A stretch of 64,000 nt of DNA from Hericium rajendrae (Eukaryota > Basidiomycota > Agaricomycetes > Russulales > Hericiaceae), in contig CM065890.1 in NCBI GenBank assembly GCA_033439255.1, positions 930,001 through 994,000 of the forward strand, in the 5' to 3' direction. The notes under the pieces are model-generated. The model worked only from the letters and a program-made list of their open reading frames with translations, was not told where the DNA came from and did not search any database. Shown here piece by piece: positions 23,228 through 53,262 of this stretch; positions within the stretch are counted from its first letter, which is position 1; each line of letters starts with the position of its first letter. A program made the translations under genes and the position numbers.

Positions 23228-23231
23228 AAGG

Positions 23232-32670: not shown

Positions 32671-32710
32671 CGGGGGCTGCTGGGGGCTGCTGGGGGCTGC
32701 TGGGGGCTGC
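32671..32710. repeat. Tandem 10-mer in I1
   Basis: Four copies of TGGGGGCTGC (first copy starts with C). Confidence 0.85.
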
Positions 32711-34565: not shown

Positions 34566-34891
34566 TGCCTCGCGCATCGCCGCGGGGTCCTCGCGCCGTG
34601 CGTCCCAGCGTCGCACCCGCCGTGCCAGCGCATCCCAGCCCCATGGCCCACGTGCTAGCACCCCCACGCGTACGCTGACCCGCGCGCGGGAGCCATCGTC
34701 GGCGCGCGGCAGATGCGCGGCCAGCGCAGTGGATGGCGCGGGCGCTAGCGGCACGCGGGCGCATAACGCTGCGCCGACTGGACCGCGGCGCGTACGCTCT
34801 GCAGCGGGCATGCGGCGAACAGCGCGTGCGCAGCTGTGGGGCGGGAGCGGGAATAGTAGTAGGCGGAAGCAGTGACAGGGCGGACCCGTAG

Positions 34892-34950
34892 GCGCCGGCG
34901 AGCGCGAAGGGAAGCGCCGGCGAGCGCAAAGGGAAGCGCCGGCGAGCGCG
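34892..34950. repeat. Tandem 22-mer in I1
   Basis: Three copies of a unit starting GCGCCGGCGAGCGC; copies 1 and 2 differ at one base, copy 3 is partial. Confidence 0.8.
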
Positions 34951-35069
34951 TAGCCGAGAGCGACGAGCGCGCCCCGGCGGTAACGAGCAGTAGCGACGAC
35001 GGCCGAGATCCTTACGATCTCGGCCGATATGTTTTTTTCTGGAATATCATATGTTTTCGCGGCACCTCC

Positions 35070-35166
35070 CGGTGCTGCTTTGTGAGCGTGAATTATAATA
35101 TGTCCAGCAACTGGCTAGTTGGCCAGTTGCTGGAGTTATTGCAATGTGCCTCCGGCAATTTGCTGG
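35070..35166. repeat. Right inverted repeat of I1
   Basis: Includes a perfect inverted repeat CCAGCAACTGGC / GCCAGTTGCTGG (35104-35133, 6-base spacer) and ends CCGGCAATTTGCTGG. Confidence 0.65.
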
Positions 35167-35204
35167 ACAGAATGTTTTTTCGTGACTGGGACGCCTCCTC
35201 CTAC

Positions 35205-36057
35205 GGACTGGCGTACCTACCCCGCCATCCGCGAGCCCGAGGACCACATCGCCGTCATCTGGCGCGTGCAAGCCGACGTCCTTGAATGGCGCGGCTATGT
35301 CTTTTGGCTGTTGTCCCACGTCGGCGACGACTGGCGACGCATTATCTTGCCCGATCCCGCCTGACGCACCGCCGTCGAAAGCTGGGGGTTTCCCTTCGCT
35401 GACACCGTCGGTACGCTGCTCGATCTCGCCGTCCCCGCGTGCGACCTCCCGTCCGTGGAAGTCCTGCTCAGCCACGACGTCCCGGTCCGCTACTTCTGGG
35501 CGCACCGCTTCGACAACGGCGGTTTCGACCATGTTGCCCTCCTTCACCCCGCTCGGCGTGCCACCCGGGATTGGCACGACAACCTCGTGGCTCAACTGGC
35601 CCGCAACCGCACCCAGCGACGGCACGACAAATCAGTTCAACGCCATGAGACTCGCGCGACCGACGTTCGTCCCGCCCCGGGCCCTTCAAGCCCCGGGCCG
35701 TACGCGTACAAGTACCGCGCGCGCGCCAACGAGGATGACCCTACCGAAAAAGTGGTCGGCCACCGGCAGCTGGCGTACCACAAACGGACATTCCGACTTC
35801 GGCTCGGCTGGCCCTCCGCCTCCTTCGCCACATTCTTCACGGATGATATCCTGGACAGTGACGAGGACGATTGGGAGGAGGCGCGCGTGCAGGGCCCTCA
35901 CGTCGATAACCTCGTGAGCCCGGCCCGCTCGCCCGCCGCCTCCCCGTCCGCCCCTATGGACGTCGACCCCGCCAGCCCGCCTCGTCGGGCGCCCACCCCC
36001 GACCCTTCCCTTCCTCCGACGGTGAAGGGCAAGGGCAAGGCGCCTGCGGCGCCTCCT
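35205..36057 (+). CDS. Outer element ORF3, segment b
   Basis: Continues ORF3 in frame 1 (DWRTYPAIREPEDHIAVIW, then VLEWRGYVFWLLSHVGDDW). An in-frame TGA at 35362-35364 interrupts an otherwise open frame that goes on with RTAVESWGFPFADTVG, VEVLLSHDVPVRYFW and an acidic/basic low-complexity tail (VKGKGKAPAAPP). A CGA to TGA transition would explain the stop. Segment b ends where insertion I2 enters. Confidence 0.65.
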
Positions 36058-36074
36058 CGCCATCTGAAAAATGT

Positions 36075-36320
36075 ACCAGTGCTATGTTGCTCTAGATGGC
36101 TTATATAGATCTCATAGGTCCATAGCAATCCCCTTTTATACATAGGGCCTCCATAGCTAAGAGCCAATCTATGATAAGCTATGTAGTCAAATAGGACAGC
36201 TATGCTCTACTATCATAGCTATGATAGCTATCACAGCATAAGGCATAGCTATGATAGCTATACAAGCTATGTCAGTTATATCTTGTATGCTTATTATGAT
36301 ATCATATCTAGCCAATTAGA
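36075..36320. repeat. Left palindromic arm of I2
   Basis: Dense self-complementary motifs: ATCATAGCTATGATAGCTAT, GGCATAGCTATGATAGCTAT and CAAGCTATG. Single strands could fold into many small hairpins. Confidence 0.75.
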
Positions 36321-37311
36321 ATTGCTATCTAGCCTATATTATCTCTGCTTTATATATGACTTAGGCCTACTATAAATATTTGATAGAAATTTAAAACTTT
36401 CATAGCCTCAATGGGCTAATTATAGATCAAATAATCAAAACATCGGAAATTCAAAAACAATATATTTTTAATCTTATATAAATACAGATGCTATATTAAA
36501 CTATTGAGATATATATACAATGTTACATCATCTAAGATATAAACCTAAGTCAAGCTAACTTACTAAACAAAACATAGAGCTTACCAAGCATGAGAAAGTC
36601 GAAAAATAGTCTAACAAAGATGCCACATCATCAGCATAAGTTACAACAAACATAAGAGAAGACTTACCCTAAAAAGATAAAAAGCGAAAATATCAAGTCT
36701 ACAAAATCAATACATCAATACATTAATACTAATGAACAATAGATAGATACTTACCGAAGACAAAAAAGTTTAAGAGAAAGGACGGGAAGAGGAAGAAGAA
36801 CGGACGAGAGGAGATGGTAGTGGTTGAGAGACAAGAGAGAAAGCGCGTCGTGCGAGGGTTATAAATCCGAGTCCGGGTTTGTCCGGCGGAGCCCGAAATG
36901 TGGCTGCCGGATGCCGCGGCCAAGGCTAGCCATTAGATCTCACTAAGTTGGCTTGATTGCTCAAGGGAGTAGAGTCGAGTAGATACATTTGTGTATCATC
37001 CATTGTGCTTAAACAAATAAATTATGCCTTGTGTGTTTTTTTTGGAATTCAGACGGTTTTATTTGATTTGTTGCAATCGAAAACGCCAAACGTGCGAGTC
37101 GAGTGCTCGGTGGCTGCACTTGACGCGCGACTCTGCGTTTCTTCGCAGTCACCTCTCCCTCCTCCTCTCACTTCCCCTCCCCTCCCCTCCTCTCCGTTGT
37201 TATCTCCTTCATCACGCAGCGCACGTCGTCATCCGACGCTCGGGAGGGCCAGTAGGGTTGAGGGCCTCAGGTAAGTACAGTATTGTTTCTTTTTTTTGTC
37301 TCCGTGCTAAT

Positions 37312-37351
37312 AATACGAGTATCGTTCGTGCGAACGAACGATACTCGTATT
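37312..37351. repeat. Perfect 18-bp hairpin inside I2
   Basis: AATACGAGTATCGTTCGT (37312-37329), 4-base loop GCGA, then its exact reverse complement (37334-37351). Confidence 0.9.
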
Positions 37352-37445
37352 TCTTCTTGCCCTCGCCTTCGACACCCTGCGGCCACGCATACGAGCCCAC
37401 CCCGTACCACTCCCTCGACAGCACCGCCGACGACGCCGACGTCGA

Positions 37446-37469
37446 GTCTCGTTGCCGTGGCAACGAGAC
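37446..37469. repeat. Second hairpin inside I2
   Basis: GTCTCGTTGCC, two-base spacer GT, then the exact reverse complement GGCAACGAGAC. Confidence 0.85.
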
Positions 37470-38599
37470 ACGACTAAATGGTTGTACGACGTGCCCTGCC
37501 GCCGCCCTCTACCGCAATGCCCACGCGCAAACCCCCGCTCTCGGCTCCCCCCCCACTCGCTTTCGCCTCCACAGCCAGTCACGCCCGGAGACACGCGCAT
37601 GTGGCCCCGCCGACATGCGTGGGGTCGCGCTGGCAAGTGCGTGCACGGGCGCTGACGACCGCCAGCGCACCCGTGCACGCGCACGCTGCACGGGCAGCTG
37701 CGGACTGCGCGCGCGGGGCACGCACGCTGGCCGACGACCGCGCCAGCCCATGCACGCATGCACTGCCCCGCCAGCGCAGGCACGGCGCGGGCAGCCGTGC
37801 ACGGCCCCGACAGTGTGCAGGCTGTCACGCACGGCACGGCTCCACCCTCGCGCGGCCGCAGACGACCGCGCCAGCGTGTACGTGCACGTATGCACGCACG
37901 TCGAGCGCTGCGGCGCCCGGCCTTGCCAACGCGCGGGCGATCACCCGCGGCCGCGTCCTCGCCTTCTCGCGGCCGTTGACGACTGCGTCAGCGCAACTGC
38001 GGACTGTCACGCGCGGTCCGGCCCTGCGTATGGCCACACACGACCGCGCCAGCGCGCGTACGCACGCACGGCGAGGCAGAGCCGCGCACTGGCCTGCCAG
38101 CGCCACGCACGGGCCTGCCAGCACCACGCGCGGCCTCGTCTGCCAACGCGGGGCTATGCAGGCCGGTGACTGCGTGCAGGGCTGCTCACGACCGTGCCAG
38201 CGCACACGCGCACGGTCCCCGTCTGCTCGCGCGGGGCTACGCAGGCCGGCCGATGACCGCGCCAGCCCATCGCGTGCGGGCAGTCGCTTCTGCGTGCGCG
38301 AGGCTATGCATGCACGGCGGCTGCGCACGCCGATAAGGGCGCCCGCGCGCACGGGCAGCCGCGTCTGCACGCGCGAGGCCGCGCACACCGGACAATTGCG
38401 CCCGCGCCCGCATGCGTGCACACGCTGCATGAACAGCTGCGACGACGGGCGTTACGTGTGCGCCATTGGGCATGTGTGAGGTCCATCCAGAGTAATTAAT
38501 TCCTTCTGTAATGTAGCAGCCAATTTGTAGTATTAGTGACATTTTTATTTAATAATTTCGACTTCACACCTTTGATACCTATCTGGCTAAGCATAGTCA

Positions 38600-38812
38600 G
38601 CATAGCATTGATAGGAGCCATAGCTCCCCTCAGCAAGTATGATAGCTCTATGTATTTGACAGTACTAGCTATGTAGGCTATGTATTTTACACTGTCTGCT
38701 ATGAAGGCTATGATAACTCTCATAGCTCTACATAGCTTGGCAAGTCAGAGCCATAGACTCCATAGCTTACCTATAGGATTCATAGCTTGACCTTTTGCTA
38801 TATAAAATTTAG
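38600..38812. repeat. Right palindromic arm of I2
   Basis: Repeats of CATAGCT, AGCTATG and GGCTATG in both orientations, mirroring the left arm in composition but not base for base. Confidence 0.7.
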
Positions 38813-38829
38813 ATTTTTCAGATGGCGCT

Positions 38830-39645
38830 GCCTCCCCTGACCGCGACGACGAGGTGAGCCTGGGCAGCGACTTGTCCGACGAATGGGACCCGCCTCTCGC
38901 TCACGCAATCGCCGCCTCTCGCGTCCGGCCTGCCACGCCTGATGGAGCCGGCCCCAGCACTCTCCCCACGTCATCGGCCGCTTTCGCTCCGCCGCCACCC
39001 CGGCCCACGTTTTCGCCGCCGCGCCCCGCCGTGTCCCGTCCCCGTAGCGACTCCGCCGCGCACGTCAAGCGTCCTCAGCGGCGGCCGAGCCCTGTCCACG
39101 ACCGCTCCTCCGTGCCCCGCTCCCGTAGCTCACGAGGTCGCTTCGTTCCGGGCTCGTCGCTGGCTGACCGTATCACCTCGCCCACCCTCGCGCAGCGTTT
39201 GGACCCTGCCCTCGTGCCCCGCGATGTCGCGCCCCGCGGCGACTCTGCCACGCCAGTGCTACTGCAGCGCCTGTCGGATGCCTCCGATCCTCCGCCGCGC
39301 CTCCTCCTGCGTATGCGTTCCTCCGCCGTTCCCGCCGCGCCACCTGCTTCTCCCGCCCCCTCCCCTGCGCTCGTCGTCCCGCCACCGGCTCCGCCCGCCC
39401 CGGTCGTTCCGCCGCCTGCTCCACCCGTTCCGGTTGTCGCGCCGCTTGTTGTCCCGCCGCCCGCTTCCGTCCCCTCGTCCACGGCCGCGGCCCCGCCGCC
39501 TCTGCCTTCGCGTCTGGAGCCCATTCATCCTGCGGTCCCCGTCGCGCTCGGCGTCGACGTCGCCGCCATGCCGCTTGTCGTGCCTCCGGTCCCCGCTTCT
39601 GCTGCGCGCGGCACTCTCTATTTTTCCGCGCGCTCCGTCTTGCAC
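38830..39645 (+). CDS. Outer element ORF3, segment c
   Basis: Same frame as segment b. Opens with an acidic piece (SPDRDDEVSLGSDLSDEWDP), then a long Pro/Ala/Val/Arg-rich linker (VVPPPAPPAPVVPPPAPP type repeats). It is cut by the inner element's 5' LTR after TTGCAC. Likely a disordered linker between the two halves of ORF3. Confidence 0.6.
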
Positions 39646-40664
39646 TGATGCGCCCTTTAGCGCGCCTTGCAACGGCATTGCCCACTCCCCGCCTCCTCGC
39701 CCGTCCCGCTTCACTTCACCTCAGCCGCACCAAGTCCGCCCACCGCGACGTCGCTCCCCGCACAGGACAAGCGCCCCCACGGGTTCGGGACCGACCGGGT
39801 CGGACTAAAGCCGGTGTCCTGTGGTCCGATGCACCGAACGGGCCGGAGATCAACCGGCCGGACGAGTCAGCGGCACAGGAACAGAAGTGCGCCCAGCGAA
39901 CCAGCCGGCTCAATCAACGCGCCCTCGAACGCCCACACGCCCCCGGATCACGGGCGGCGCCCGCGACAGTGCGCTACTGACGTCATCCCAGCCATTCCAG
40001 CTCGACGCGCCCGCCGTTCCCGATGCACGCCCGGGCGACGTTGTAAGGCGGCACCTTTGATTCGTCCGTACCACGCGCACGCCCTCTGCCCTGCACGGGC
40101 CGAGCCGCAACGACTCCACTCGCCAAGGGACCCGGAGCAGGCAGGATCAGGAAGGAATTGGAGATTGGGTCGGTCAGCGGGAGGTTGTCGTAGGGAGTCG
40201 CGCCGGGCCGCCAGAGGCGGCCTTGCCCATTTGTACCGTAGCTACTGACTTAGAGAATCAGAACGGAATCGGCCTTTTTCCCCTCAGGGCTCAGATCTCA
40301 CAAAGCCCGCCGTTTGACGTTCTCACCCCAGCCTCTAAGCCCGTCTCAGACGTAGCTCTTCTCACTTCCTCGTGTCGCTCATCGTATTCGTCGTACTCGT
40401 CGCCGCGCCGTTATCTACAAGCCGTATCACCTAAGACCCGTGAGTCTTGCCGTATCGTCATCGTCCCTAACAGAGCCGCGTCGGAAGTCGCCCGCGCGCA
40501 GCAAGCTCGCCTCCCGCGGCCTTGCTCCCCTACCCGTAGTACGATCACCCGTCAGCTACACGTCTCGGCGCTCCCCTCTTGAGATACTTGGTCCCCTCGC
40601 ACCCCCCGGTACTCTGTTGGTTTTGGTTTTGGCTGCCGCCTCCATTCCCAGGGTCCACACATCA
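39646..40664 (+). repeat. 5' LTR of inner element
   Basis: 1019 bases, matching 50774-51792 without indels. Four transitions separate the copies, within the segments 39,829, 39,926, 40,023 and 40,398 or close by. Confidence 0.92.
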
Positions 40665-40668
40665 TTTT

Positions 40669-40685
40669 TGGAGCCCACCGCGAGG
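40669..40685 (+). other. Candidate primer-binding site of inner element
   Basis: TGGAGCCCACCGCGAGG starts with TGG four bases past the LTR, the same spacing as in the outer element. The cognate tRNA was not identified. Confidence 0.45.
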
Positions 40686-41092
40686 GTTCCATACTCAAAA
40701 TAGAGCCGCGTCGTACTAGGAGTAGCGCACGGTCGAATCCAGATCGTACCCTCGAACAAGAAGTCCGTGTTGCGACTCAGGACCCTCAGCAAGTTTCCCC
40801 CGACCTACCGTCACCTTTCCCACCAGTTCCAACTCCCACTAGTCCCCTTACTCCCATCGACGAGTTCGAAATTCCCGAGCTCGGGCGTTCCTTCATCGTT
40901 CCTACTCCACCCGTATCGCCGACCCCGGCGCCGCGACCCCTTGCCGGTCCCTCTGCTACCGCAGGTCCTAGGACAACGCCGCACCAGGCGACTTTGCCTG
41001 CTACCCCCCGTCCCCCTTCTGCTACTCAACAACACAGCCCGCTAGCCCCTGCACGTTTCCCCTTCCCCAGGCCACAAAGTATCCAACCAGTC

Positions 41093-43594
41093 ATGCCGCC
41101 CCCCTCCATGCCTATGCGCGGCGAGAGCGGTGCTCCCAAATTCGACACCAACTCCCCCCGCGAGCTGGGCCGTTACTTCCTCGATCTCGAATTTTGTTTT
41201 CAGCGTTCCTCTGTGGTAGATGACGCGGAGAAAAAGAGTCATGCGGTCCGTCTCCTTTCAGACGTTGACGCACAAGAGCTATGGCGGTCCGAGGCCAAGT
41301 ACGCCGCCGGCACTTGGGACGAATTCAAGAAAGCTATCCACGAACTCTACCCGGGCTCGGCTAAGGAGAATACCTTTTCGCGTCAAGATTTGGAGTCACT
41401 CGTGCACCGAACTGCCGAGTCCACCCTCAGTTCCGTCGGCGAACTTGGTGCGTTCTCGTGCGAGTTCACGGTCATCACGCGTTACCTGAAAGGCAAGAAC
41501 CGCATCTCCGATATCGAGGAACAACGCTGGTTTTTGGCGGCGCTCCCCGAACGTCTTCGCCTGCGGGTAGAGGACCGCCTTGCTCTTACCAAGCCTGATC
41601 ACCATCCCGACGATCCGCACCCGATCAACGACGTCTATAGGGCCGCAGAGTGGTGCATGTATGGCACTGCCATCACCCCCGACCCGTACCTGCGTGGACC
41701 GTCGTCAACTCAAGCCACCGCGTCGTCATCAACCGCCGATGCAGGCTCAGGAACGACTATCCAGATTAAGAGTGAGCAGTTAGCGTCACTAGCCGATATC
41801 CTCTTGAGGAGCGCGCAGCAGCCGTCGCGTCAACCGATGGTCTCCGGAGGTAATCAAGGCGCGCCAATGCGCGGGCGAATGGGGTCGGATCAGTGCAACT
41901 TCTGTGGGAACGTGGGGCATTTCGTGCGCGAATGCATGACAGCCCGGGAATACATGGCCGCGGGCAAGTGCAAGAAGGACGTCCAAGGCAAGATGGTCTT
42001 ACCCTCTGGGGCTTGGCTCCCGCAAGGACCCCCAGGCGCGACTATGGCCGAACGGATCGACGAATACCACCGTATGAACCCCAATCAGCGAGCCACGGGT
42101 CAGCTTATGATGGGTGTAGCCGGTACCCACCAGGCAAGTTCGCCGCGGGTGGGGCTCCCTCCCTACGGCTATCGCGTCGCGCCGGCATACGCTCAGACCG
42201 CCGCGTCCCCCTATACCCAGGTCCAGGCAGGGTTGTACCAGCTCACCACAGACGCGCGGATCGAGAGCCTGGAGGGCGAGCTACGGCGGTTATACCAGTT
42301 GAAGGACGCCTCGGTCGTGCCCCCACCCAATGCCGCGGCCAGCCGTGATAGAGCTAACCGGGCGTTGGAACGAGCTCGCAGGATGGAAGAGCCTGCCCGC
42401 CAATCAGCCCCTCCACGATTGCCCCGTGCGCCGCCGCGCCCGACCATCGAGGACGAACCAGAGCCGCCGCGGGCGTCCCTGCCCCCTCCGCAAGCTTCAC
42501 CGGCCCCAGGCCCGGAACGAGACGTCCCCCCCCACCTTCTATCTCAACCTGCGGTACGCGACGACCTCCGCGACCCTGATGGTCCTGTCCACCCCTTTGC
42601 CAGAGCCCGCGACGGTGCAAGGCCCGCGCAAGTCCCAGTGATCGAAGTAGTCGAAGAGACGGGCCCAACCCGCCGTGCGCAAGACTCAGTCGGGCAAGAC
42701 GTGCTGGACCGCGTGTTCGCGCGCGCCATGTCCCTCCCTATCGAGGTCACCCAGGGCGAGCTTTGGTCCCTGGCGCCTGCACTACGCGCGAAATACAAGG
42801 AGGCAGTCTCACGGCGTCACACGCGTCCGATGGCGGGACAGAACCTGTTGGAAGTCCTTAACGAGACTGACCTGCTCTCCGAGCTGCCGGGCGAAGATGC
42901 AGTCGAGGAGCTGGCCTCGCCAGCGCGTCAAGTAGAGCTCGCTGCAGGTATCCAGTTCGCGAGCGAGCCCGCCGAAGGCGACCGTGTGCAGCACCCGGCC
43001 TCGCCCCCTCATCCACGGGTATCTATCCTTTCGCACCAGTGCGCCGAGCCGCCGGACGGTGCTGTCGTCCTCCCGGATCCCTACGAGCAGTACCTCAAGC
43101 AACTCCGCCCGGACGAAAAGCCTAAGCCCCTGATCGTCTCGCGCGAGTCTGCGGCGCTGCGCTCTATTGCAGCACTCATAGATCATCAAGAACCGGTCGA
43201 GTGCATCTTGGACCCAGGTTCTCAGGTCATCTCCATGTCAGAGAGCGTTTGCTACACCTTAGGCCTGTCGTATGACCCCACGATTATCCTCACTATGCAA
43301 TCCGCCAACGGCGAACTTGATGACTCGCTGGGCCTGTGCCGAAACGTGCCTGCAGTCTTCGGCACATTGTTCTCTACCTCCAAATACACGTCCTCCGGTC
43401 GCCCGCCTACGATATCCTACTCGGACGCCCCTTCGATGTGCTTACCGAGTCCGTCGTGCGCAGCTACCGCAATGAAACACAGACCATCACCATCTTCGAC
43501 CCAAACACCGGCGAAGCAGCCACGATCCCCACCCACCCGCGCACTGACATTCAGTATACGCTCGCGGCAAAGGAGGATTTTCGCGCTTCGATGA
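41093..43594 (+). CDS. Inner element Gag with 5' part of protease
   Basis: The frame is open from about 40,686 without an ATG; 41093 is the first (MPPPSMPMRGESGAPKFD). The upstream Pro-rich stretch also looks translated. Capsid-like region: ELGRYFLDLEFCFQ to YRAAEWCMYGTA. Zinc knuckle CNFCGNVGHFVREC (CX2CX4HX4C). A coiled-coil/Pro-rich middle is followed by the protease start (ECILDPGSQVISMSESVC, with D-P-G in place of D-S/T-G). After about 43,365 this frame becomes nonsense to its stop at 43594; the true protease continues one frame back (43336-43599: VLYLQIHVLRSPAYDILLGR). That is a one-base loss, real or an assembly error. Confidence 0.85.
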   Translation: MPPPSMPMRGESGAPKFDTNSPRELGRYFLDLEFCFQRSSVVDDAEKKSHAVRLLSDVDAQELWRSEAKYAAGTWDEFKKAIHELYPGSAKENTFSRQDLESLVHRTAESTLSSVGELGAFSCEFTVITRYLKGKNRISDIEEQRWFLAALPERLRLRVEDRLALTKPDHHPDDPHPINDVYRAAEWCMYGTAITPDPYLRGPSSTQATASSSTADAGSGTTIQIKSEQLASLADILLRSAQQPSRQPMVSGGNQGAPMRGRMGSDQCNFCGNVGHFVRECMTAREYMAAGKCKKDVQGKMVLPSGAWLPQGPPGATMAERIDEYHRMNPNQRATGQLMMGVAGTHQASSPRVGLPPYGYRVAPAYAQTAASPYTQVQAGLYQLTTDARIESLEGELRRLYQLKDASVVPPPNAAASRDRANRALERARRMEEPARQSAPPRLPRAPPRPTIEDEPEPPRASLPPPQASPAPGPERDVPPHLLSQPAVRDDLRDPDGPVHPFARARDGARPAQVPVIEVVEETGPTRRAQDSVGQDVLDRVFARAMSLPIEVTQGELWSLAPALRAKYKEAVSRRHTRPMAGQNLLEVLNETDLLSELPGEDAVEELASPARQVELAAGIQFASEPAEGDRVQHPASPPHPRVSILSHQCAEPPDGAVVLPDPYEQYLKQLRPDEKPKPLIVSRESAALRSIAALIDHQEPVECILDPGSQVISMSESVCYTLGLSYDPTIILTMQSANGELDDSLGLCRNVPAVFGTLFSTSKYTSSGRPPTISYSDAPSMCLPSPSCAATAMKHRPSPSSTQTPAKQPRSPPTRALTFSIRSRQRRIFALR

Positions 43595-43599
43595 TTTGA
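43366..43599 (+). CDS. Inner element protease C-terminal part (shifted frame)
   Basis: Frame 1 carries the second half of the retropepsin fold (AYDILLGRPFDVLTESVV, then TITIFDPNTGEAATIP). It ends ATGATTTGA at 43591-43599, overlapping the pol frame. This overlap is where a -1 shift or reinitiation would lead into pol. Confidence 0.7.
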   Translation: MVLYLQIHVLRSPAYDILLGRPFDVLTESVVRSYRNETQTITIFDPNTGEAATIPTHPRTDIQYTLAAKEDFRASMI

Positions 43600-46500
43600 T
43601 CGACGATCAAGGAGAGGTCGCCTTCATCGTTGATTTCGACTCGGAGACGCCGCAAATCACGGCTTATGCCGCTATACCCCCAGAATGTTCCGAAAACCCA
43701 GACAAACGCCAAGATCATCTTCAATCTCTTTATCTCTATGCCTGTGATGCCTCGCTTCTCGACTCTAGTCCGGGGGGTCCTTCGCTTTCGGACGCCCCCG
43801 ATAAATCTAATTTGTTGTCTGCCTTTCTCTCCGCTACAGCCTGCAAGTCCGCTTCCGCTTCCAAGCAAGGTCGCCTGAGTCCGCCGCCTCCTGGCGCGAC
43901 GGATACCGGTCCTCCTGTCGCCTCTTACGCCGCAAAGAAATACAAGCCAGTTGCCCAAAAAGTCCGCCCAGTATTTACGGACCTCCCCGAGCGTTTTCGG
44001 GTTCTCCGTAACATCAAAGGCGACCCTCTCCAAGACCTGCCGGAGTTATCTCCCAATCCGCCCCCGTTCGCTCCCACCGCCCGCTATACCGAAGAAAGAA
44101 AAGCGGTTATCGATCGCGCCCATCCTGAAGGTTTCCTCTGGCCCTCCGAGCACGACCTACTCCACCATTTCATGTGTCTCCACGATACCGCCTTCGCCTG
44201 GGACGATTCAGAGCGGGGACATTTCCGCGAAGACTTCTTCCCCTCAGTGGTTATGCCGGTGATACCGCACACCCCCTGGGTCTTGAAGAACCGTCCAATC
44301 CCGCCAGGCATCCACGACAAGGTCTGCGAGATTATCCGTACCAAAATCGCCGCCGGCGTATATGAGCCTTCGTCGTCGTCATATCGCTCACGCTGGTTCT
44401 GCGTCACCAAAAAGGATGGTACAAGCCTGCGCATTGTGCACAGTCTCGAACCACTCAACAAGGTCACCATCGCTCACTCGGGCGTCCCGCCTTTTACCGA
44501 CCAGCTCGCCGAGCAGTTCGCCGGGCGTGCTTGCGGCGGCATCCTCGATCTCTACGTTGGTTACGACGAGCGACTCTTGGCGGAGGAGTCCCGCGACATG
44601 ACCACGTTCCAAACCCCGTTCGGGCCCAAACGGCTCGTTACGCTGCCCATGGGGTGGACGAACTCCGTGCCTATCTTCCACGACGACGTTACCGAAATCC
44701 TCCGGCCAGAAATCCCAGCTGTCACCATGCCCTATATCGATGATGTCCCCATTAAAGGCCCAGCTACCCGTTACGAGCTGCCCGGCGGAAATTTTGAAAC
44801 TATACCCTGGAACCCAGGTATTCGTCGCTTTGTCTGGGAACACTTCCAGGGCGCGAACCGTGTCGTCCAACGCATGAAATATTGCGGTGGTACCTTCTCA
44901 GGGAAAAAGACTGTCCTTTGCGCGCCGGAAATCATCGTCGTCGGCCATAGATGCACGCCGGCGGGCCGTTTGCCAGAACTCAGCAACCTCGCCAAGGTCA
45001 GCAACTGGCAACCTTGTACCGACCTCTCGGACGTTCGCGCTTTCCTCGGGACCATTGGCGTGGCCCGCATCTTCATCAAGAACTTTGCAAAACGTGCTCA
45101 CCATCTGGTTCGGCTTACGCGCAAGGACACCCCATTCGAGTTTGGCCCAGACCAGTTGGCTGCGCAGGAAGACCTTAAGCAAGCGCTACTCGCATCACCC
45201 GCCCTGCGCGCGATAGATTACGAGTCTCCCGCCTCAGTGATCCTGGGCGTCGACACCTCCTATATTGCCATTGGTTACCTACTCTGTCAACAGGATGTGG
45301 ACGACCCCAAAGTTCGCCGGTATGCCCGCTTCGGCTCTATCGCCCTGAACGACCGTGAGGCGCGCTTCTCTCAACCGAAGCTGGAATTATATGGCCTATA
45401 CCGGAGCCTTCGCGCACTCAAACTCTGGCTCATTGGCGTTCGCAACCTGATTATCGAAGTCGACGCCCGTTATATATCCGGCATGCTGAATAATCCCGAT
45501 CTCGCCCCTAGTGCGTCCATGAACCGGTGGATCGTCGGCATCCTCATGTTTCAATTTACCCTGGTCCACGTCCCTGGCGAGAAGCATGGGCCGGATGGCC
45601 TCTCCCGGCGCCGCCCCCAGGACGATGATGCGCCCGAACCCGACGACGACTTCGACGACTGGGTCGACCGTGCTTATGGCTTTGTACACATAATAAATGT
45701 ACCCCGGATCGGCCACGACCGCCCTCAGCTGGCCCAACAGCTCATCTCGACCAATGTCGCCGCCGGCGATTTTGTCGCGCCTCCTCCGCAAGACCACTTG
45801 GCGTCCTACGCAGACGTTCCAAGGTCCGAAAAATCCCTCCTCACGGATGCCCGACTGCGCGCCGTCACCGACTTCCTGCTCCACCCGATCCGCCCTGACG
45901 GATTGACGGACCGGGAGTACGCTCGCTTCCTGCGTTATTGCCGCGACTTCTTCATGAAAGGTGGCCGCCTCTGGAAGCGCGACAAGACAAATGCGCACAA
46001 ACTAGTGCTCCCGCCGACCGGCCGCTGGGCTGCTCTCGTTGAGACTCACGAGTCCGCGGGACACCGTGGCGTCGCCGCAACCGCCCTCCTGCTCGCGGTC
46101 CGTTTCTGGTGGCCTTTTATGGGCTCGGATGTCGCTTGGTTCGTCCGTTCGTGCCATATTTGCCAAGCGTTCCAGATCCGCAAAGTTCTTATCCCGCCAA
46201 CGGTTGCGGTGCCCGCGCCTTTATTTGCGAAAATGTACATGGATACCATGCACCTGCCGAAATCCAACAATATGCAATACCTGGTCCAAGGGCGCTGCTC
46301 TGTGTCCCACTTTCCCGAATGGCGCATGCTGCGCAAAGAACGCAGCGAGCACATTGCTGATTGGATTTACCAAGACATCTTGTGCCGCTGGGGTATGCTC
46401 ACCGAAATCGTGTCCGACAACGGCGGCCCGTTCGTTAAAGCCTTGACGCAGCTGGAAAAGAAGTACCACGTCCGGCATATCCGCATCTCGGGCTATAACT

Positions 46501-47279
46501 CGAGAGCCAACGGCATCGCTGAGCGTGCACACTTTGACGTACGCCAAGCCCTGATCAAGGCCGCCGACGGCGTGGAGAAGAATTGGAGCTACTCAGCCCA
46601 CTCCGTGTTCTGGTCGGAACGTATCACCATCCGCCGGCGCATGGGCTGTTCCCCATACTTCGCGGTAACCGGTACGCACCCCCTGATGCCGCTCGATATC
46701 GCTGAAGCCACCTACCTGCTACCGCCGCCCGAGGCGATCTTGTCCTCTACCGACCTGATCGCCTCCCGCGCTCTTGCCCTGCAGAAGCGTCAAAAGGACC
46801 TTCAGCGACTTCACAGCCGCGTCTACGAGGCCCGCCTCCAGGCAGCACGAAAATTCGAACTGGAACATGCACGCACGATCCGCGACTTTGACTTTCGCCG
46901 CGGCGAACTGGTACTTGTCCGCAATTCCGCGTACAGCACCAGCCATTCCTGGAAGACCAAACCGCGCTACCTAGGCCCGTACCTCGTCCTCGGCCGCAAC
47001 AAGGGGCGTGCTTACCTCTTGTGTGAGCTCGACGGTACGTTATTCGACCGGCCCACCGCAGCCTACCGCGTTGTCCCGTATTTCGCCCGTACCATCCTCG
47101 ATCACCCGCCATTGGAGGATTTCCTCGATGTCGGCATCGAGCAGTTTGAACGTTTACTCGCCTCCACCGTCACAGACCCGGATGACGAAACCGCCGGCAG
47201 CGACCTCGGCGAATTCGACAGGTCCCGACCAAGTTCGCCCGCGGCGTCCTCTGACCACTCGACTAGCGAGGAGGACTGA
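43596..47279 (+). CDS. Inner element Pol: RT, RNase H, integrase
   Basis: 1227 codons. The frame has no ATG start and overlaps the protease end, so expression by -1 frameshift or reinitiation is inferred. RT: RWFCVTKKDGTSLRIVHSLE, FQTPFGPKRLVTLPMGWTNS and active-site MPYIDDVPIKG. RNase H: ILGVDTSYIAIGYLL, KLELYGLYRSL, IIEVDARYISGM and HVPGEKHGPDGLSRR. Integrase zinc region: HESAGHRGVAATALL with CHIC. Catalytic D,D,E: MYMDTMHLPK, IVSDNGGPF, RANGIAERAHFDVR. GPY/F-like: KPRYLGPYLVLGRNKG. The C-terminus is acidic and Ser-rich with no chromodomain, so the lineage differs from the outer element. Confidence 0.9.
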   Translation: MIDDQGEVAFIVDFDSETPQITAYAAIPPECSENPDKRQDHLQSLYLYACDASLLDSSPGGPSLSDAPDKSNLLSAFLSATACKSASASKQGRLSPPPPGATDTGPPVASYAAKKYKPVAQKVRPVFTDLPERFRVLRNIKGDPLQDLPELSPNPPPFAPTARYTEERKAVIDRAHPEGFLWPSEHDLLHHFMCLHDTAFAWDDSERGHFREDFFPSVVMPVIPHTPWVLKNRPIPPGIHDKVCEIIRTKIAAGVYEPSSSSYRSRWFCVTKKDGTSLRIVHSLEPLNKVTIAHSGVPPFTDQLAEQFAGRACGGILDLYVGYDERLLAEESRDMTTFQTPFGPKRLVTLPMGWTNSVPIFHDDVTEILRPEIPAVTMPYIDDVPIKGPATRYELPGGNFETIPWNPGIRRFVWEHFQGANRVVQRMKYCGGTFSGKKTVLCAPEIIVVGHRCTPAGRLPELSNLAKVSNWQPCTDLSDVRAFLGTIGVARIFIKNFAKRAHHLVRLTRKDTPFEFGPDQLAAQEDLKQALLASPALRAIDYESPASVILGVDTSYIAIGYLLCQQDVDDPKVRRYARFGSIALNDREARFSQPKLELYGLYRSLRALKLWLIGVRNLIIEVDARYISGMLNNPDLAPSASMNRWIVGILMFQFTLVHVPGEKHGPDGLSRRRPQDDDAPEPDDDFDDWVDRAYGFVHIINVPRIGHDRPQLAQQLISTNVAAGDFVAPPPQDHLASYADVPRSEKSLLTDARLRAVTDFLLHPIRPDGLTDREYARFLRYCRDFFMKGGRLWKRDKTNAHKLVLPPTGRWAALVETHESAGHRGVAATALLLAVRFWWPFMGSDVAWFVRSCHICQAFQIRKVLIPPTVAVPAPLFAKMYMDTMHLPKSNNMQYLVQGRCSVSHFPEWRMLRKERSEHIADWIYQDILCRWGMLTEIVSDNGGPFVKALTQLEKKYHVRHIRISGYNSRANGIAERAHFDVRQALIKAADGVEKNWSYSAHSVFWSERITIRRRMGCSPYFAVTGTHPLMPLDIAEATYLLPPPEAILSSTDLIASRALALQKRQKDLQRLHSRVYEARLQAARKFELEHARTIRDFDFRRGELVLVRNSAYSTSHSWKTKPRYLGPYLVLGRNKGRAYLLCELDGTLFDRPTAAYRVVPYFARTILDHPPLEDFLDVGIEQFERLLASTVTDPDDETAGSDLGEFDRSRPSSPAASSDHSTSEED

Positions 47280-47290
47280 GGGCAGTCCAT

Positions 47291-47307
47291 TTTTCAGTTA
47301 GGGGGAG
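47291..47307 (+). other. Internal polypurine tract copy
   Basis: TTTTCAGTTAGGGGGAG, 12 bases after the pol stop, identical to 50755-50771, which lies directly before the 3' LTR. It could be a central plus-strand primer or the scar of how the antisense module was acquired. Confidence 0.75.
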
Positions 47308-47735
47308 TAGAGGCCGTCAGTCAAGCGTGTCGACGACCTTGGACGCCCCACCAATACCCACACGCACGAAATAAATCTATTGTTACTTGCATTTCGACAA
47401 ACTCGCCTTGGGCGATCTTCATACCATCCACCACTCAGATTTTACCTTCACCAATCGTATAGGCCCTGACAAGATCGCCTGGGGCGACTTTGTTTCTTTC
47501 TGGTTTTCCCCTTTAGATTCACACAGGTTCAGACTTCAAGATGGGCTCCCATTCGGCAGGAGCAACGATACAGTAGGACTCGGCGTCCCGATTACGAGCG
47601 ACCTATAGTAAAAAGCCGGGCCTAAGGCCCGGGCAACACAAAACGTATGCGACAACTTCCACGACGACAAAACAAGATAGCAAATTTAAAAGGGGAGGGT
47701 CTTTCCCTCCCCGCGCAAAGCGACAGCCCCGCTCG
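47308..47735. other. Spacer after pol
   Basis: 428 bases without a supportable ORF. It includes an inverted GCCCGGGCC-type pair at 47,618-47,635 (CCGGGCCTAAGGCCCGG), near the 3' end of the antisense gene, where it could act as a 3' end signal. Confidence 0.45.
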
Positions 47736-49691
47736 TCAGGAGTCAGCCGGCACGACTTCCTCTGACGCGGCCACCTCAGCGACAGGAGCCGCTGCCGGCT
47801 CCAACGGCTCACCGGGACCCTCGACCGAAGGAACGGGGGACTCCCTCGCAAGCGGGCGCGAAGACGGACCCGCGGTGGGACTCGCCGCGGCCTCCTCCTC
47901 TGCGTCGCTAGCGGCGTCCGCAGGCTCGTCCTTGGCGACCTTGCCCTCTTCATCCGCCTCCGCCGCGATATACTCGCCGCGCGTGCCCGTATAGAGGGCC
48001 GTGACGAGCCTCTCGACGGCGAGGATCTGGCCGTGGTTCGACATGCGTTGGAGGTACAAACCGACGAGCTGCCGCTCGGTCTCCGCGAGCAGGGTGCGGC
48101 GGAGCGACGAATCGCGCGGAATGCACGCGTAGGGGTCGACGTAGTCCCAGGCCCCTGGACGGAAGCCGTCGGAGACCGGGAACGGAAGGCGAGATGCGAG
48201 CGCCTCGAACGGGGCTGTAGGACGGTCACCCGGTCAGCAAACGCGTAGCAACAGCGGGGTAGCGACTTACGGAGCGCGCCCGCGGAGTCTGGTATCCCCG
48301 GCAAGACCACGGGGGAGTCGACCACCTGGTCGCGACCAGAAGAAGCCGCGGCGGCGCGCGCGGCAACGGGATCCACGACGGGCGCACCCATCCGCGTCAG
48401 ATGCGCGTTGAGGTCGACACAGGCGAGGCAGGAAGCGCGCTTCTCGCTGCACTCGCAGCATCGCTCGTGCTTCGCGCGCCCGACGTTCTTCGCAGGGAGG
48501 ACCCGGCGGAGGCACTCCTTGCCCTCGTTGATGCACGCGGTGCACCACTGCTCGGGCAGGCACTACGCAAACAGAAAATTAGCGTCGAGCACGGGTGGAG
48601 GAGATGGGTACTTACCGGACCCCACTTCTCATCGGGCTCCTTGGCCTTGGCCTTCCCTTTCCCCTCGTTCGCAGCGACGGCGCCAGCCGGTCCCGTACGC
48701 GCCCTCTTCGCCGGCGGGGGCACTTCGACAATCTCGTCCCCCGCCTCCTCCTCCTCGACAGGTGCTACGGCCTTGCGCTTGGCCGCGCGAGTCGCGGCGG
48801 ACACTGGAGCGTCCAGAGCCGGGTCTACGTCCCGCTCGGCGGACGCGTCTACGACACCGGTGGCGTTAACAGGGCGGCGACTTCGAGGCGGTCTTGCTCA
48901 CCGGTCTGCGAGCGGGGCGGCGACGGAACCCTGGTGCGCGTGGAAGACGAGGCCTGCGGGGTCTCGTTGGTTGGCGCGGCCGCCCTTTTGCCCTTAGGGG
49001 GCCCTGTCTTGCGTGTTGAAACGGGCGCGACCTGCGCGGGCCCCTTGCCCTTGGGTGTCGCGGCCGCGAGCGGGGTGTCGTCGTCGCTCTCCTCGAGCTC
49101 GTCGGTCTCCCGGTCCTCTGTCTCGGTCGGGTCTTCGGGGGCTCGAAGACGTCGAGCACCTTGGCACCCCACTTGCGGTCGGACTTCAGCTCGAGGCGGC
49201 TGAAGACTACACGGGCGTCGGCGATCCCGCGACGGAAGAAATCGTTGTCGAGGTGGGTCGGTCGACCTCAAGAGAGGGCCCTGTCAGGAGTGGTGGTCAG
49301 CGGGGACGGAAGCAAAACGTGCGCCGGCGGACTCACCAAGCAACTGGCAACCTGGGTGATCCACTCTGCCCAGACATTGCCGGGGTCGCCTTCGCGCGGG
49401 TGGCCTGACCCGAAGAGGCGTTCGAGAGCCTGAATACCCTTGGGGCGGTTGTCGACGTACGCGCGAGCCATGGGAGACGAGGTGCTGAGGAGCGAGTCGC
49501 CTCGCAACTCAGCGTTCATAAGGACTCCGCGACAAGACGGAAGCGCCTGGCGAATTGCCTCCGGAGAAGCCCCCGCGTACAGGTAGCTTCGCAGCTTCGC
49601 GCAGAAGCCCGCGACGCGGGCACCCGGCCAAAACAGTTGTCGCTTCGGACTCAATCAGGATCTCAGGCCCCGATTGGCGCCCATTTGTCAT
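47736..49691 (-). pseudogene. Antisense cysteine-rich gene of inner element (frames broken)
   Basis: Runs opposite to gag-pol. From the 5' side: MTNGRQSGPEILIESEATTV (49691), then in a shifted frame AKLRSYLYAGASPEAIRQAL and WAEWITQVASCL with a GTGAGT donor at about 49338. A downstream exon reads well as FFRRGIADARVVFSRLELKS in one frame and as DPTETEDRETDELEESDDD in the next. Then come basic/acidic stretches (AATRAAKRKAVAPVEEEE), an intron near 48,560-48,614, and a cysteine cluster (CLPEQWCTACINEGKEC, CCECSEKRASCLAC). Another intron (about 48,213-48,270) precedes the last exon ending EVVPADS at 47736. The cluster looks zinc-binding. At least two frame breaks are needed, so it is degenerate or the assembly has indels. 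Confidence 0.5.
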
Positions 49692-49824
49692 TTCAGCCGC
49701 GTCTCGCGAACAGGAAGCCTATTCGGCGACGGGCAAGTCCCACAGACAGCATAGTGCGCCTTGGCACCAGAATAGTTCAATTGAGCGGCGAGGCATGCTC
49801 GCCACCGGCGTACATCGTACTATA

Positions 49825-50577
49825 CTAATCCGCGGCCCCTCCCGCGACCCTGTCGCGGGCGCCCTCCTCGTCTGCTCGGTAGGGCGGAAGCCGCAGCAGC
49901 TCGGCCAAGTCGAGTGCCTCCGCCACTAGGCGGTGCATCGTCTCTAGCTCATGCGGATCCTCGCTCACCTCTCCCCCGGCGTCTTCCCACGGCAACTCCG
50001 GCGCGGAGACCGCTTGATGCAGCCTGGCGAACAACGGCTCCAGAGCCCGCTTGCAGGCCTCCGCGTCTATGACGTCATACTGGTACTTGCGGCAGGTGAT
50101 ATCGATTTCCTCCAGGGCCACCGCGCGGCGCGTCTCCCACAGCTCGGACTCGGCCACGGACAGGCGGTCCGCGGCATCTACCTGATGGTGCTCCAGGGAA
50201 TCGAGCCACTCGCGCTTCAGCGACGGCATGAGGTACCAACCCCAGTCGAGCCAACGGCGGACTTTCCCGGACGCGCGGGCGGCCTCGGACAGGAAGTGGT
50301 CCGACATCTGCGTGATGTCATCCTGCAGACCCACGTCGATGGCGCCAGCGTAGCGCTGGTAGTCCTTCTGGAGTCCCGAGAATTAGCAGGTACGCAACAA
50401 CGCCGCAAGCGAGCTTGGACGTACTACGGCGACCATGAGGTCTCGACCCCAGATCTCGCGTTCCCGGATGACCGCGTCGCGCTTGAACAGCGTGGACGCA
50501 TCGAGCGGGGTCCACGAGCGCTCCGCAAGGAGCCAGGTCACTTTCTGGCGGAAGACTTGATCAAGGAAGGTGTTCAT
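49825..50577 (-). CDS. Antisense intron-containing gene of inner element, 231 aa
   Basis: Two exons: 50577-50425 (51 codons, MNTFLDQVFRQKVTWLLAER to REIWGRDLMVAV) and 50367-49825 (180 codons plus stop). The 57-base intron has GTACGT, a TGCTAAT branch-like site and CCAG, and it joins in phase 0 to KDYQRYAGAIDVGLQDDITQ. The protein is mostly helical with charged heptad-like stretches (SVAESELWETRRAVALEEI, RALEPLFARLHQAV) and no motif I recognise. A TATAAAAGG box lies 62 bases before the ATG. Because it is antisense, its intron is not removed when the element's genomic RNA is spliced, so it can persist. The frame is intact. Function unknown. Confidence 0.68.
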
Positions 50578-50638
50578 CGGGACAAGACTGCCGGGCGCGA
50601 AGATGGCTCGGAGTTGAGTGCCCTCCCGGGCGTAGATG

Positions 50639-50647
50639 CCTTTTATA
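50639..50647 (-). promoter_or_regulatory. TATA box of antisense gene
   Basis: Minus strand TATAAAAGG, a full TATA consensus, 62 bases upstream of the ATG at 50577 and inside the element just before its 3' polypurine tract. Confidence 0.6.
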
Positions 50648-50754
50648 GGCTCGCTGCAGCACACCCGCCCAGGGCGCCGTCGCACAATCGGCTTCACGCA
50701 TGCCCGCGCCCGAATCCCTCGTGGGGCTCCAGATTAGACTACGGAGAGTCTAAA

Positions 50755-50771
50755 TTTTCAGTTAGGGGGAG
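50755..50771 (+). other. 3' polypurine tract of inner element
   Basis: TTTTCAGTTAGGGGGAG followed by AA and the LTR start at 50774; the standard position for plus-strand priming. Confidence 0.8.
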
Positions 50772-50773
50772 AA

Positions 50774-51792
50774 TGATGCGCCCTTTAGCGCGCCTTGCAA
50801 CGGCATTGCCCACTCCCCGCCTCCTCGCCCGTCCCGCTTCACTTCACCTCAGCCGCACCAAGTCCGCCCACCGCGACGTCGCTCCCCGCACAGGACAAGC
50901 GCCCCCACGGGTTCGGGACCGACCGGGTCGGACTAAAGCCGGTGTCCCGTGGTCCGATGCACCGAACGGGCCGGAGATCAACCGGCCGGACGAGTCAGCG
51001 GCACAGGAACAGAAGTGCGCCCAGCGAACCAGCCGGCTCAATCAACGCGCCCTCAAACGCCCACACGCCCCCGGATCACGGGCGGCGCCCGCGACAGTGC
51101 GCTACTGACGTCATCCCAGCCATTCCAGCTCGACGCGCCCGCCGTTCCCGACGCACGCCCGGGCGACGTTGTAAGGCGGCACCTTTGATTCGTCCGTACC
51201 ACGCGCACGCCCTCTGCCCTGCACGGGCCGAGCCGCAACGACTCCACTCGCCAAGGGACCCGGAGCAGGCAGGATCAGGAAGGAATTGGAGATTGGGTCG
51301 GTCAGCGGGAGGTTGTCGTAGGGAGTCGCGCCGGGCCGCCAGAGGCGGCCTTGCCCATTTGTACCGTAGCTACTGACTTAGAGAATCAGAACGGAATCGG
51401 CCTTTTTCCCCTCAGGGCTCAGATCTCACAAAGCCCGCCGTTTGACGTTCTCACCCCAGCCTCTAAGCCCGTCTCAGACGTAGCTCTTCTCACTTCCTCG
51501 TGTCGCTCATCGTATTCGTCGTACTTGTCGCCGCGCCGTTATCTACAAGCCGTATCACCTAAGACCCGTGAGTCTTGCCGTATCGTCATCGTCCCTAACA
51601 GAGCCGCGTCGGAAGTCGCCCGCGCGCAGCAAGCTCGCCTCCCGCGGCCTTGCTCCCCTACCCGTAGTACGATCACCCGTCAGCTACACGTCTCGGCGCT
51701 CCCCTCTTGAGATACTTGGTCCCCTCGCACCCCCCGGTACTCTGTTGGTTTTGGTTTTGGCTGCCGCCTCCATTCCCAGGGTCCACACATCA
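50774..51792 (+). repeat. 3' LTR of inner element
   Basis: 1019 bases, same ends as the 5' LTR. ORF3 of the outer element resumes directly after it. Confidence 0.92.
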
Positions 51793-51796
51793 GCGC

Positions 51797-52600
51797 GTTG
51801 CGGTGCACCGCTCCACCGCTCCGTCTGCCCCGCTCACGGATCTCTTGCGCGACCTTGTGCAGCGCGGCGTCGCGGTCACGTGGCGCGTGCCGCGGCCCCT
51901 GCCCGCCCCTGGCGCGCCCGCGGGTGGCCCTCTGCCCGACTTCCTGCTCACGTCGTGGGCTGCCGCCTCGGCTCCGTCGTTGTCGCTCTACCTCGGTATG
52001 CTTCACGACCTCCTTCTGCGGCCGCACGCGCGACAGTGGCTCCTTCGCGGTGGCCTGGCCTGGCGTCTGGCCCTTCATTACGGCCCTCCTTCCCTTCTCC
52101 CCGACGCGCTTTCGGGGCCGTCCTCCACCGCGCTCATTTCCGGCCAAGGTAATCCTTGGGATCTGCCCGTGTCCAGCATCGGCGACTTGCCATCGGACGC
52201 GGAGACCGCGGCCCTCACTGGCCAGACTGCCGATGGAGGTTTCTGGCCCCCCGTCGACGTCTGGGAGCAGTCCGCCGCTTGGACTGGCGAGTGGCATGCC
52301 GCGAACGAGCATTGGTTCCAGCAACGCCTCGCGCAGCTCGCTGCGGGTGACCCCTTGCTCCGCACAGAGTCATCATGGCGTCACCAGGTTCGTCGTGGCC
52401 TCCTCACTTCGGCGCGCCACCTTGGGGATGGCCTGGGTTCTTTACTCAGTGCTAACCAGATGGTCAACGCATATCCCGAGGCTGCGGCTTTGCCTTCCCT
52501 CTCCTTCCCGGTGCCGGAGCCCGCCCCGCCGCCCGTGCCCGCTGCCGCGCCACCGCCCGCACCCCCCGCGCCCCCGCCGGGTTCGAGTCCGCACCTCTAG
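51797..52600 (+). CDS. Outer element ORF3, segment d (C-terminal)
   Basis: Resumes ORF3 after the inner element (VAVHRSTAPSAPLTDLLRDL). Trp-rich and helical: LYLGMLHDLLLRPHARQWLL, GFWPPVDVWEQSAAWTGEWH, EHWFQQRLAQLAAGDPLL. It ends in a Pro/Ala tail with the stop at 52598-52600, 34 bases before the 3' LTR. Together the four segments total 1,022 codons from ATG 31209. No enzyme motif recognised. Confidence 0.65.
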   Translation, partial: VAVHRSTAPSAPLTDLLRDLVQRGVAVTWRVPRPLPAPGAPAGGPLPDFLLTSWAAASAPSLSLYLGMLHDLLLRPHARQWLLRGGLAWRLALHYGPPSLLPDALSGPSSTALISGQGNPWDLPVSSIGDLPSDAETAALTGQTADGGFWPPVDVWEQSAAWTGEWHAANEHWFQQRLAQLAAGDPLLRTESSWRHQVRRGLLTSARHLGDGLGSLLSANQMVNAYPEAAALPSLSFPVPEPAPPPVPAAAPPPAPPAPPPGSSPHL

Positions 52601-52621
52601 TGTTCTCCCCGGTGCTGCTTG

Positions 52622-52634
52622 ACTAGGGGGGCTT
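52622..52634 (+). other. Polypurine tract of outer element
   Basis: ACTAGGGGGGCTT immediately precedes the TGTAAC start of the 3' LTR. Confidence 0.65.
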
Positions 52635-53257
52635 TGTAACAGATGCCGGATGCCGAGTGATGTCATGCGACGCCAGGCGCCGGACGCCATCACGTGCCAA
52701 CGCGGAACCTCGAGGTAGCCGGGCCCGGAAGCGCCGCCTTCCCGATTTGGTAGTCAAGCCACACCAGTCGACCTACTGTACAGTCGAGAGCGGACCTGCA
52801 ATCTTATTTCCACTCGTATTTAGCAGACGTCTTGTATAGTAAAAATCATCTATCATCACCTATCTTCTGTCGAATCTTATTCTTCCTTTCTTGCTTTTTT
52901 CCTTCCTCTCGAGCGACGTCTGCGCGCGCGCTTCGAACGAGCGCCCGCGCCTTGCTTCTGAACGAGGAAGTCGAAGCGCGCCCACACACGCAAATCCGGC
53001 CAAAGGCCGTCTTTGGTGAGTAATCCGCTTCGCCTCCCTCCTCTCTCCACGACACGTCGTCCGAGGTAACAGGCGAGTTCGCCTGCCTCGTCCTCCGTCC
53101 TTCAGGCTTTTAGAAGTCTTCGTCGAGCCGAACTGAGACTTCTCGTTCGACTTCGACTCGGGCGCCTCGCTCGGACTCGAGGACCGCACACACCTCTGCT
53201 CTCCAACGCCCGCTAGCCACGGTGAGGACTCCCGGTATTTGCGACCGTTGCGTCACA
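52635..53257 (+). repeat. 3' LTR of outer element
   Basis: 623 bases, ends GCGTCACA, followed by the ACCGG duplication. Five transitions from the 5' LTR. Confidence 0.93.
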
Positions 53258-53262
53258 ACCGG
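53258..53262 (+). repeat. Target-site duplication ACCGG (right)
   Basis: Same five bases as 22600-22604; marks the original kinase-array sequence resuming. Confidence 0.9.

Follow-up and report, generated by a model that had tools for sequence, protein, structure and literature searches.

Introns on the opposite strand: an antisense two-gene module in a Ty3/Gypsy family of Hericium rajendrae

Copying through RNA normally erases introns, and lasting cargo with multiple introns is unexpected in a retrotransposon. How, then, can a Ty3/Gypsy element of Hericium rajendrae carry two intron-bearing genes, here termed A and B, on the strand opposite to its gag and pol? The element lies in a stretch of 64,000 nucleotides (hereafter the window; assembly GCA_033439255.1, contig CM065890.1, positions 930,001 to 994,000 of the forward strand), and the two genes lie within window positions 47308-50771, a segment termed the module below. 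We regard the module as probably an accessory antisense unit of an agaricomycete Ty3/Gypsy family, comprising two captured spliced genes kept by purifying selection. The sense genomic RNA would carry the introns backwards, so that they would stay unspliced and be copied into DNA.

The carrier element and the recurrence of the module

The initial annotation placed the module between pol and the 3' long terminal repeat (LTR) of a nested Ty3/Gypsy element, and our analysis agreed with this placement. The sense-strand parts of the inner element are:

39646..51792, plus strand: inner Ty3/Gypsy element, the carrier of the module; LTR pair 99.6% identical (4 differences over 1019 nt); empty site with a 4-bp duplication in locus L056
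39646..40664, plus strand: 5' LTR, 1019 nt
40994..43594, plus strand: gag and protease frame, open in the window copy; zinc knuckle and aspartyl protease matches below the Pfam cut-offs
43548..47279, plus strand: pol frame, open in the window copy (stop to stop); Pfam cut-offs exceeded by the RNase H domain and the integrase zinc-binding domain
50774..51792, plus strand: 3' LTR, 1019 nt

The element bears the features of Ty3/Gypsy elements, namely LTRs, a polypurine tract and the pol order reverse transcriptase (RT), RNase H and integrase. No Pfam match to RVT_1 was found in its pol, in which RT was placed via relatives and an RT search. It is nested in a second, outer LTR element whose integrase has a chromodomain (outer LTR repeat at 22605-23228 and 52635-53258), and L056, which holds the empty site, is a relative of this outer element. 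The target duplication is the 4-bp GCGC, one of the window copies of which reads GCAC. The pol had 1459 relatives at E ≤ 1e-30; among the best 120 of the 1459, the identity was 58-66% and the species named are Agrocybe chaxingu and Mycena chlorophos, with contigs from soil also among the relatives. The search of viral_contigs and genome_contigs with the pol alignment yielded no relative.

We searched the genome of H. rajendrae itself (46.8 Mb, 19 contigs) and found that the module recurs at about 40 genomic places at least; counts of module pieces are lower bounds. A module piece was found downstream of 37 of the 40 RT copies (85-100% identity, within 60 kb, same strand), at a distance within 4 kb in 26, 4-15 kb in 7 and 15-60 kb in 4. 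The three RT copies with no module piece showed identities of 93, 87 and 85%. Two RT fragments (84 and 65 aa; >85% identity) were left out of the 40 as parts of copies already counted. For the comparison between copies, we used 40 fetched loci (L009-L048) and the window, 41 sequences altogether. The LTR identity was 97-100% among the 40 copies listed.

The largest deletion in the module among 34 loci was 20 nt, so that no intron had been lost in any of them. All four introns retained GT-AG borders in the covered sequences (counts given with the features below), the sole exception being intron 3 of gene A in an old copy, L045. The initial annotation had argued that antisense orientation protects introns from loss and had called for a survey of other copies of the family. 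The copies support this view: none of those covered lacks the introns, which is what one expects when the sense genomic RNA holds them in an orientation that cannot be spliced. The results support the spliced-type antisense module as a regular part of the inner-element family.

The two antisense genes and the tests for selection

The features of gene B are:

50425..50577, minus strand: exon 1, ATG at 50577
50368..50424, minus strand: intron, 57 nt, GTACGT...CAG; GT-AG in 38/38 covered sequences
49825..50367, minus strand: exon 2, stop codon included
50639..50647, minus strand: TATA box TATAAAAGG, putative antisense promoter element, kept in 37/38 covered sequences

An intact minus-strand gene for 231 aa at 49825-50577 with one clean 57-base intron was proposed initially and stands as described: the frame in the window copy comprises 231 codons once the 57-nt intron is removed. 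The box noted with it was also recovered, as TATAAAAGG at 50647-50639 of the minus strand. The distance from this box to the ATG is 70 nt, and the box belongs to the internal region of the element, the 3' LTR beginning at 50774. Gene B was intact in 29 of the 37 fully covered sequences. Once the element has integrated, a promoter inside it and close to the 3' LTR would transcribe B and then A toward pol.

Gene A is split into four exons:

49337..49654, minus strand: exon 1, taken from the preceding stop onward; start provisional, the first ATG in frame within the window lying at 49519
49281..49336, minus strand: intron 1, 56 nt; GT-AG in 39/39 covered sequences
48616..49280, minus strand: exon 2, frameshifted in the window copy (665 nt vs 669 nt in L012)
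48563..48615, minus strand: intron 2, 53 nt; GT-AG in 38/38 covered sequences; junction in agreement with the Hericium alpestre gene model
48271..48562, minus strand: exon 3 (Cys-rich)
48215..48270, minus strand: intron 3, 56 nt; GT-AG in 36/37 covered sequences
47736..48214, minus strand: exon 4 (acidic C-terminal part); relative P0004
47616..47712, minus strand: two hairpins with a T-run behind each, directly past the stop of gene A; they may mark where the antisense unit ends (3')

The second gene had been annotated as Cys-rich and broken, which is correct for the window copy: it has a net change of -4 nt relative to L012 and a first stop after codon 249. Beyond that annotation, gene A turned out to be intron-bearing as well, to be open in other copies and to have a relative in Hericium. 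In L012, the unedited sequence gives four exons separated by introns of 56, 53 and 56 nt, and the frame stays open for 585 residues from the preceding stop onward. Thirteen of the 31 fully covered sequences are stop-free in gene A; nine of them have the length of L012, L009, L015 and L017 have a net change of -3 nt, and L034 has one of -24 nt. In the three copies with the net change of -3 nt, part of exon 2 may be read in another frame.

A single protein matched gene A at E ≤ 10 in a search that scored only the 7999 candidates with the most shared words, namely P0004 (EWM64_g5559) of H. alpestre, another member of Russulales (Agaricomycetes), which is 77% identical over 62% of the query. The gene model of P0004 has an exon join identical to the intron-2 junction of gene A, while its join is a few residues off at intron 3. 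Many of the changes in P0004 are of the CpG-decay type, and P0004 may itself be a decaying copy. The initial annotation recognized neither protein. No Pfam or NCBIfam match at E ≤ 10 was found for either protein, and the PDB search gave nothing useful, with a lone match at E 0.9. The structures predicted by AlphaFold were too poor for use, the mean predicted local distance difference test scores being 49 for exon 2 of gene B and 43 for P0004.

The gene A protein has basic stretches and a cluster of Cys and ends in an acidic tail. Its six Cys are spaced as C-x2-C-x6-C-x17-C-x2-C-x6-C, and all six are present in P0004 (compared by eye). We take these parts to resemble a fungal zinc cluster and nuclear localization signals; in Pfam, there was no zinc-cluster match at E ≤ 10, and what gene A has in common with fungal Zn2Cys6 (GAL4-type) proteins is only a similar Cys spacing. 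Separately, hairpins with T-runs were counted at 5 sites in the module against a mean of 2.2 (standard deviation 1.7) in shuffled sequences; the fold z-score was -1.88. The pair at 47616-47712 resembles bacterial terminators, which is odd for a fungal transcription unit.

We examined whether the proteins are under selection by a frame test on 32 of the 41 sequences. Most differences between copies are CpG decay, and a plain ratio of nonsynonymous to synonymous changes was dropped because this decay dominates them. Left out were the six older copies L043-L048 and a trio formed by the window copy, L009 and L010. In this trio, the LTRs depart from those of L012 by ~3% and the internal parts by <1% in all, the pattern that an exchange of LTRs between subfamilies would give; the trio was dropped because the LTR difference inflated the first shared and private counts in the LTRs. 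The frame test takes its mutation spectrum from noncoding DNA and treats variants as independent, although the copies have a common ancestry and gene conversion may take place between them. In gene A, 44 of 101 variants were synonymous in the predicted frame (expected 0.27; p=0.0002), and in gene B, 13 of 27 (expected 0.28; p=0.02), a weaker excess than that in gene A. The five other frames gave p values from 0.032 (the mirror frame) to 0.98 for gene A and from 0.28 to 0.89 for gene B. As controls, the best of the six LTR frames had p=0.04, and one frame of the 455 nt that separate gene A from the pol stop had p=0.033. In gene B exons, 4 of the non-CpG variants were shared and 23 were private; the corresponding counts in noncoding DNA were 53 and 68 (Fisher p=0.0036). 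Among CpG changes in gene A, 147 of 348 were synonymous (p=0.067). We regard these data as good support for protein-level selection on the predicted frame of gene A and moderate support for that on gene B, with purifying selection keeping the two proteins, to the same respective degrees, during the multiplication of the family. The selection that the initial annotation proposed to test is seen in the synonymous excess of both frames, at moderate strength and beside a pol-end control that did not reach significance. Taken as a whole, the initial observation is confirmed and its interpretation is partly supported; the recurrence of the module, its retained splice sites and the synonymous excess in its predicted frames put it beyond chance.

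Several results weigh against the reading of the module as a maintained accessory unit. The positive control, the short pol end in its own frame, gave 9/22 synonymous (p=0.15). Non-CpG variants in gene A exons, 34 shared and 67 private, did not differ significantly from noncoding DNA (p=0.08), and the CpG line of gene B (50/114; p=0.0014) is equalled by its mirror frame (p=0.0015), so that it does not tell the strand. No relative of gene B was detected at E ≤ 0.001 among 5163 candidates out of 5.8 billion proteins. Gene A is broken in 18 of the 31 fully covered sequences, and L013, L020, L021 and L022 have one broken form in common, with the same net shift and the same first stop; gene A is thus not needed in cis for amplification. 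Its frequent breakage fits a protein acting in trans or one no longer needed. Finally, we infer the promoter role of the TATA box, the antisense splicing, the function of the proteins and their action in the nucleus, and for the promoter and the nuclear role this also counts against the reading.

Part of these results would suit a neutral passenger, that is, a host segment captured once, the genes of which are irrelevant now and owe their apparent preservation to recent amplification. The copies are young, as their LTR identities tell, the broken forms of gene A are partly shared, and the selection signals are moderate and come from variants that are partly non-independent. Against such a passenger stand the synonymous excess in gene A, which is seen in the predicted frame and to a slight extent in its mirror but in no other, the scarcity of shared non-CpG variants in gene B exons, and the likeness of gene A to its H. 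alpestre relative with all spaced Cys kept. We consider the neutral passenger unlikely.

A role of the antisense transcript rather than the protein, for instance in dampening the element by pairing with the sense RNA, appears less likely still. This type of role is discussed for the antisense units of plant elements (PMC7264820), and from the placement of the promoter-like TATA box, transcripts are predicted to be complementary to the 3' portion of the genomic RNA. Nevertheless, an RNA function predicts neither the frame-specific synonymous excess nor the maintenance of splice sites and reading frames.

The duplicated polypurine tract and the origin of the module

The polypurine tract of the element, TTTTCAGTTAGGGGGAG, is 17 nt long and occurs as exact duplicates at both edges of the module:

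47291..47307, plus strand: inner polypurine tract (17 nt), 11 nt beyond the pol stop; unchanged in 29/29 covered sequences
50755..50771, plus strand: polypurine tract beside the 3' LTR; unchanged in 36/38 covered sequences

The module begins right after the inner copy and ends with the outer one. An exact repeat of 17 nt is beyond chance (E 4e-6, in a small comparison); since TTTTCAGTTAGGGGGAG contains no CpG, its preservation alone is little informative. The outer copy is the one expected to serve as primer site, and the inner copy sits where an element with no module would have its polypurine tract. This arrangement suggests that genes A and B were captured between the polypurine tract and the 3' LTR of the element. 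An element lacking its 3' LTR but retaining the polypurine tract may have been read through into the adjoining DNA, and a template switch back to a position just before the polypurine tract of an intact RNA would then have left the tract duplicated at the module edges. Read-through and template switching form the route of retroviral gene transduction, in which captured genes usually lose their introns.

The module resembles transduced retroviral genes in being cargo placed before the 3' LTR with flanking direct repeats. It differs from them in being antisense, in retaining introns and in having no host source gene found, the genes transduced usually being in sense orientation (PMC7264820, PMC11963269, in the text available of each). 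A paralogue elsewhere in the same genome, as expected of transduced host genes, was not recognized outside the element in exon searches of the own genome (50 and 43 rows, not all fetched), the matches of which were interpreted as module copies or decayed pieces. The capture of host genes is accordingly proposed from the duplicated tract, for a host source that was searched for but not found. A more specific version of the capture, which we hold to be doubtful, is that a two-gene host locus was transduced in antisense with its introns, the polypurine tract being duplicated, and is now a selected regulatory module in which gene A acts as a zinc-cluster-like nuclear regulator. If this were true, the retrotransposon would keep an intact eukaryotic gene architecture on a strand that is never spliced.

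The direct repeats could also be read as the borders of a unit inserted in its own right. The module is flanked by the 17-nt repeat, nested insertions are common in the window, and a decayed module piece, L046 (G000:C1:50300-55600; 83% identical over window positions 47815-50393), has no LTR or pol sequence in its fetched flanks, one of which is AT-richer. The edges of the module, on the other hand, bear no terminal inverted repeats, no transposase or RT domain was found in its proteins with Pfam, and the flanking repeat is the polypurine tract itself and not an arbitrary target. We thus regard a separate insertion as very unlikely, and capture by the element as the better account.

The idea that a sister family shows the ancestral state with the module was considered and dropped. 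The stretches fetched after pol from six related loci, the sisters L049-L052 (~49% identity in RT) and L053 and L054 (58-59% in an RT segment), contained no relative of gene A or gene B (tblastn, best E 0.88). In one sister element, the 3' LTR begins ~65 nt past the pol stop. In the sister family represented by L055 and L052 (~49% in RT), ~5 kb separate the protease region from RT and contain a long sense frame (1155 aa, stop to stop), and the 3' LTR follows pol almost directly.

Known antisense genes and the surroundings of the element

Antisense open reading frames (ORFs) between pol and the 3' LTR, termed aORF-3R, are described in the available text of a review for gene23 of maize Grande, rice RIRE2, ORF4 of Silene Retand and bean PvRetro13, with Boty of Botrytis cited as a fungal antisense-ORF case; for Grande gene23, a promoter of its own and a product located in the nucleus have been reported (PMC7264820). 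The module has in common with these units the position between pol and the 3' LTR, the orientation antisense to gag-pol, the presence in most copies of the family (37/40), proteins with no clear known relatives, and conservation at the protein level (gene A, p=0.0002; gene B, p=0.02; the pol-end control not significant). It differs in having two genes with four introns in total, a duplicated polypurine tract and a basidiomycete host; introns of aORF-3R genes are unmentioned in the available text of the review (PMC7264820). Retand elements with antisense TRP28 ORFs, for which a regulatory role has been proposed, likewise have a long region between pol and the 3' LTR and antisense coding regions in recently active copies, and a term search did not find "intron" in the available main text of that paper (PMC11963269). 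The module proteins differ from these in having no TRP28 or other Pfam domain (none at E ≤ 10). By analogy with the plant antisense genes, the proteins of A and B would most likely act on the expression or replication of the element itself in the nucleus.

The initial annotation compared the module with the antisense genes of some retroviruses in logic only. In deltaretroviruses (human T-cell leukemia virus, HTLV), an antisense gene does lie close to the 3' end of an element that replicates by reverse transcription (PMC7264820, PMC11963269), but the closest systems are the plant and fungal aORF-3R elements. The antisense promoter of HTLV is inside the 3' LTR (PMC7264820, in the text available), whereas the TATA box of the module is in the internal region, and the protein, PDB and Pfam searches found no sequence relation to HTLV antisense genes.

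Reporter elements such as Ty1his3-AI have the reverse arrangement: their intron is placed so that it can be spliced out of the element RNA, whereas the introns of the module are protected. Our searches of an open-access library found no description of intron-bearing antisense genes in an LTR retrotransposon, while the original descriptions of Grande, RIRE2 and Boty may report introns. Antisense genes of this position are already known, and the spliced two-gene form is an unusual variant, in which four introns have survived many rounds of copying by lying on the opposite strand. Coming from a mushroom lineage that can probably be cultivated, the family offers a fungal system for asking what antisense accessory genes do, and its two polypurine tracts are concrete evidence of a route by which a module of this type may be taken up.

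The outer chromodomain element has ~3.4 kb of its own between pol and the 3' LTR (window positions 30904-31793, 35200-36060, 38825-39643 and 51793-52634). In two of its copies, L056 and L057, this region bears a long sense frame (1170 and 1089 aa, respectively, stop to stop) and, in both, a 709-aa antisense frame; either strand could be the coding one. Two more repeats, both recurrent in the genome, are nested in the outer element, one of ~3.4 kb (31794-35199) and one of ~2.8 kb (36061-38824); the frames tested in them had no Pfam match. Elsewhere in the window, positions 3283-8506 hold three tandem copies of a ~2-kb unit, 73-82% identical to one another, which are probably a local gene family.

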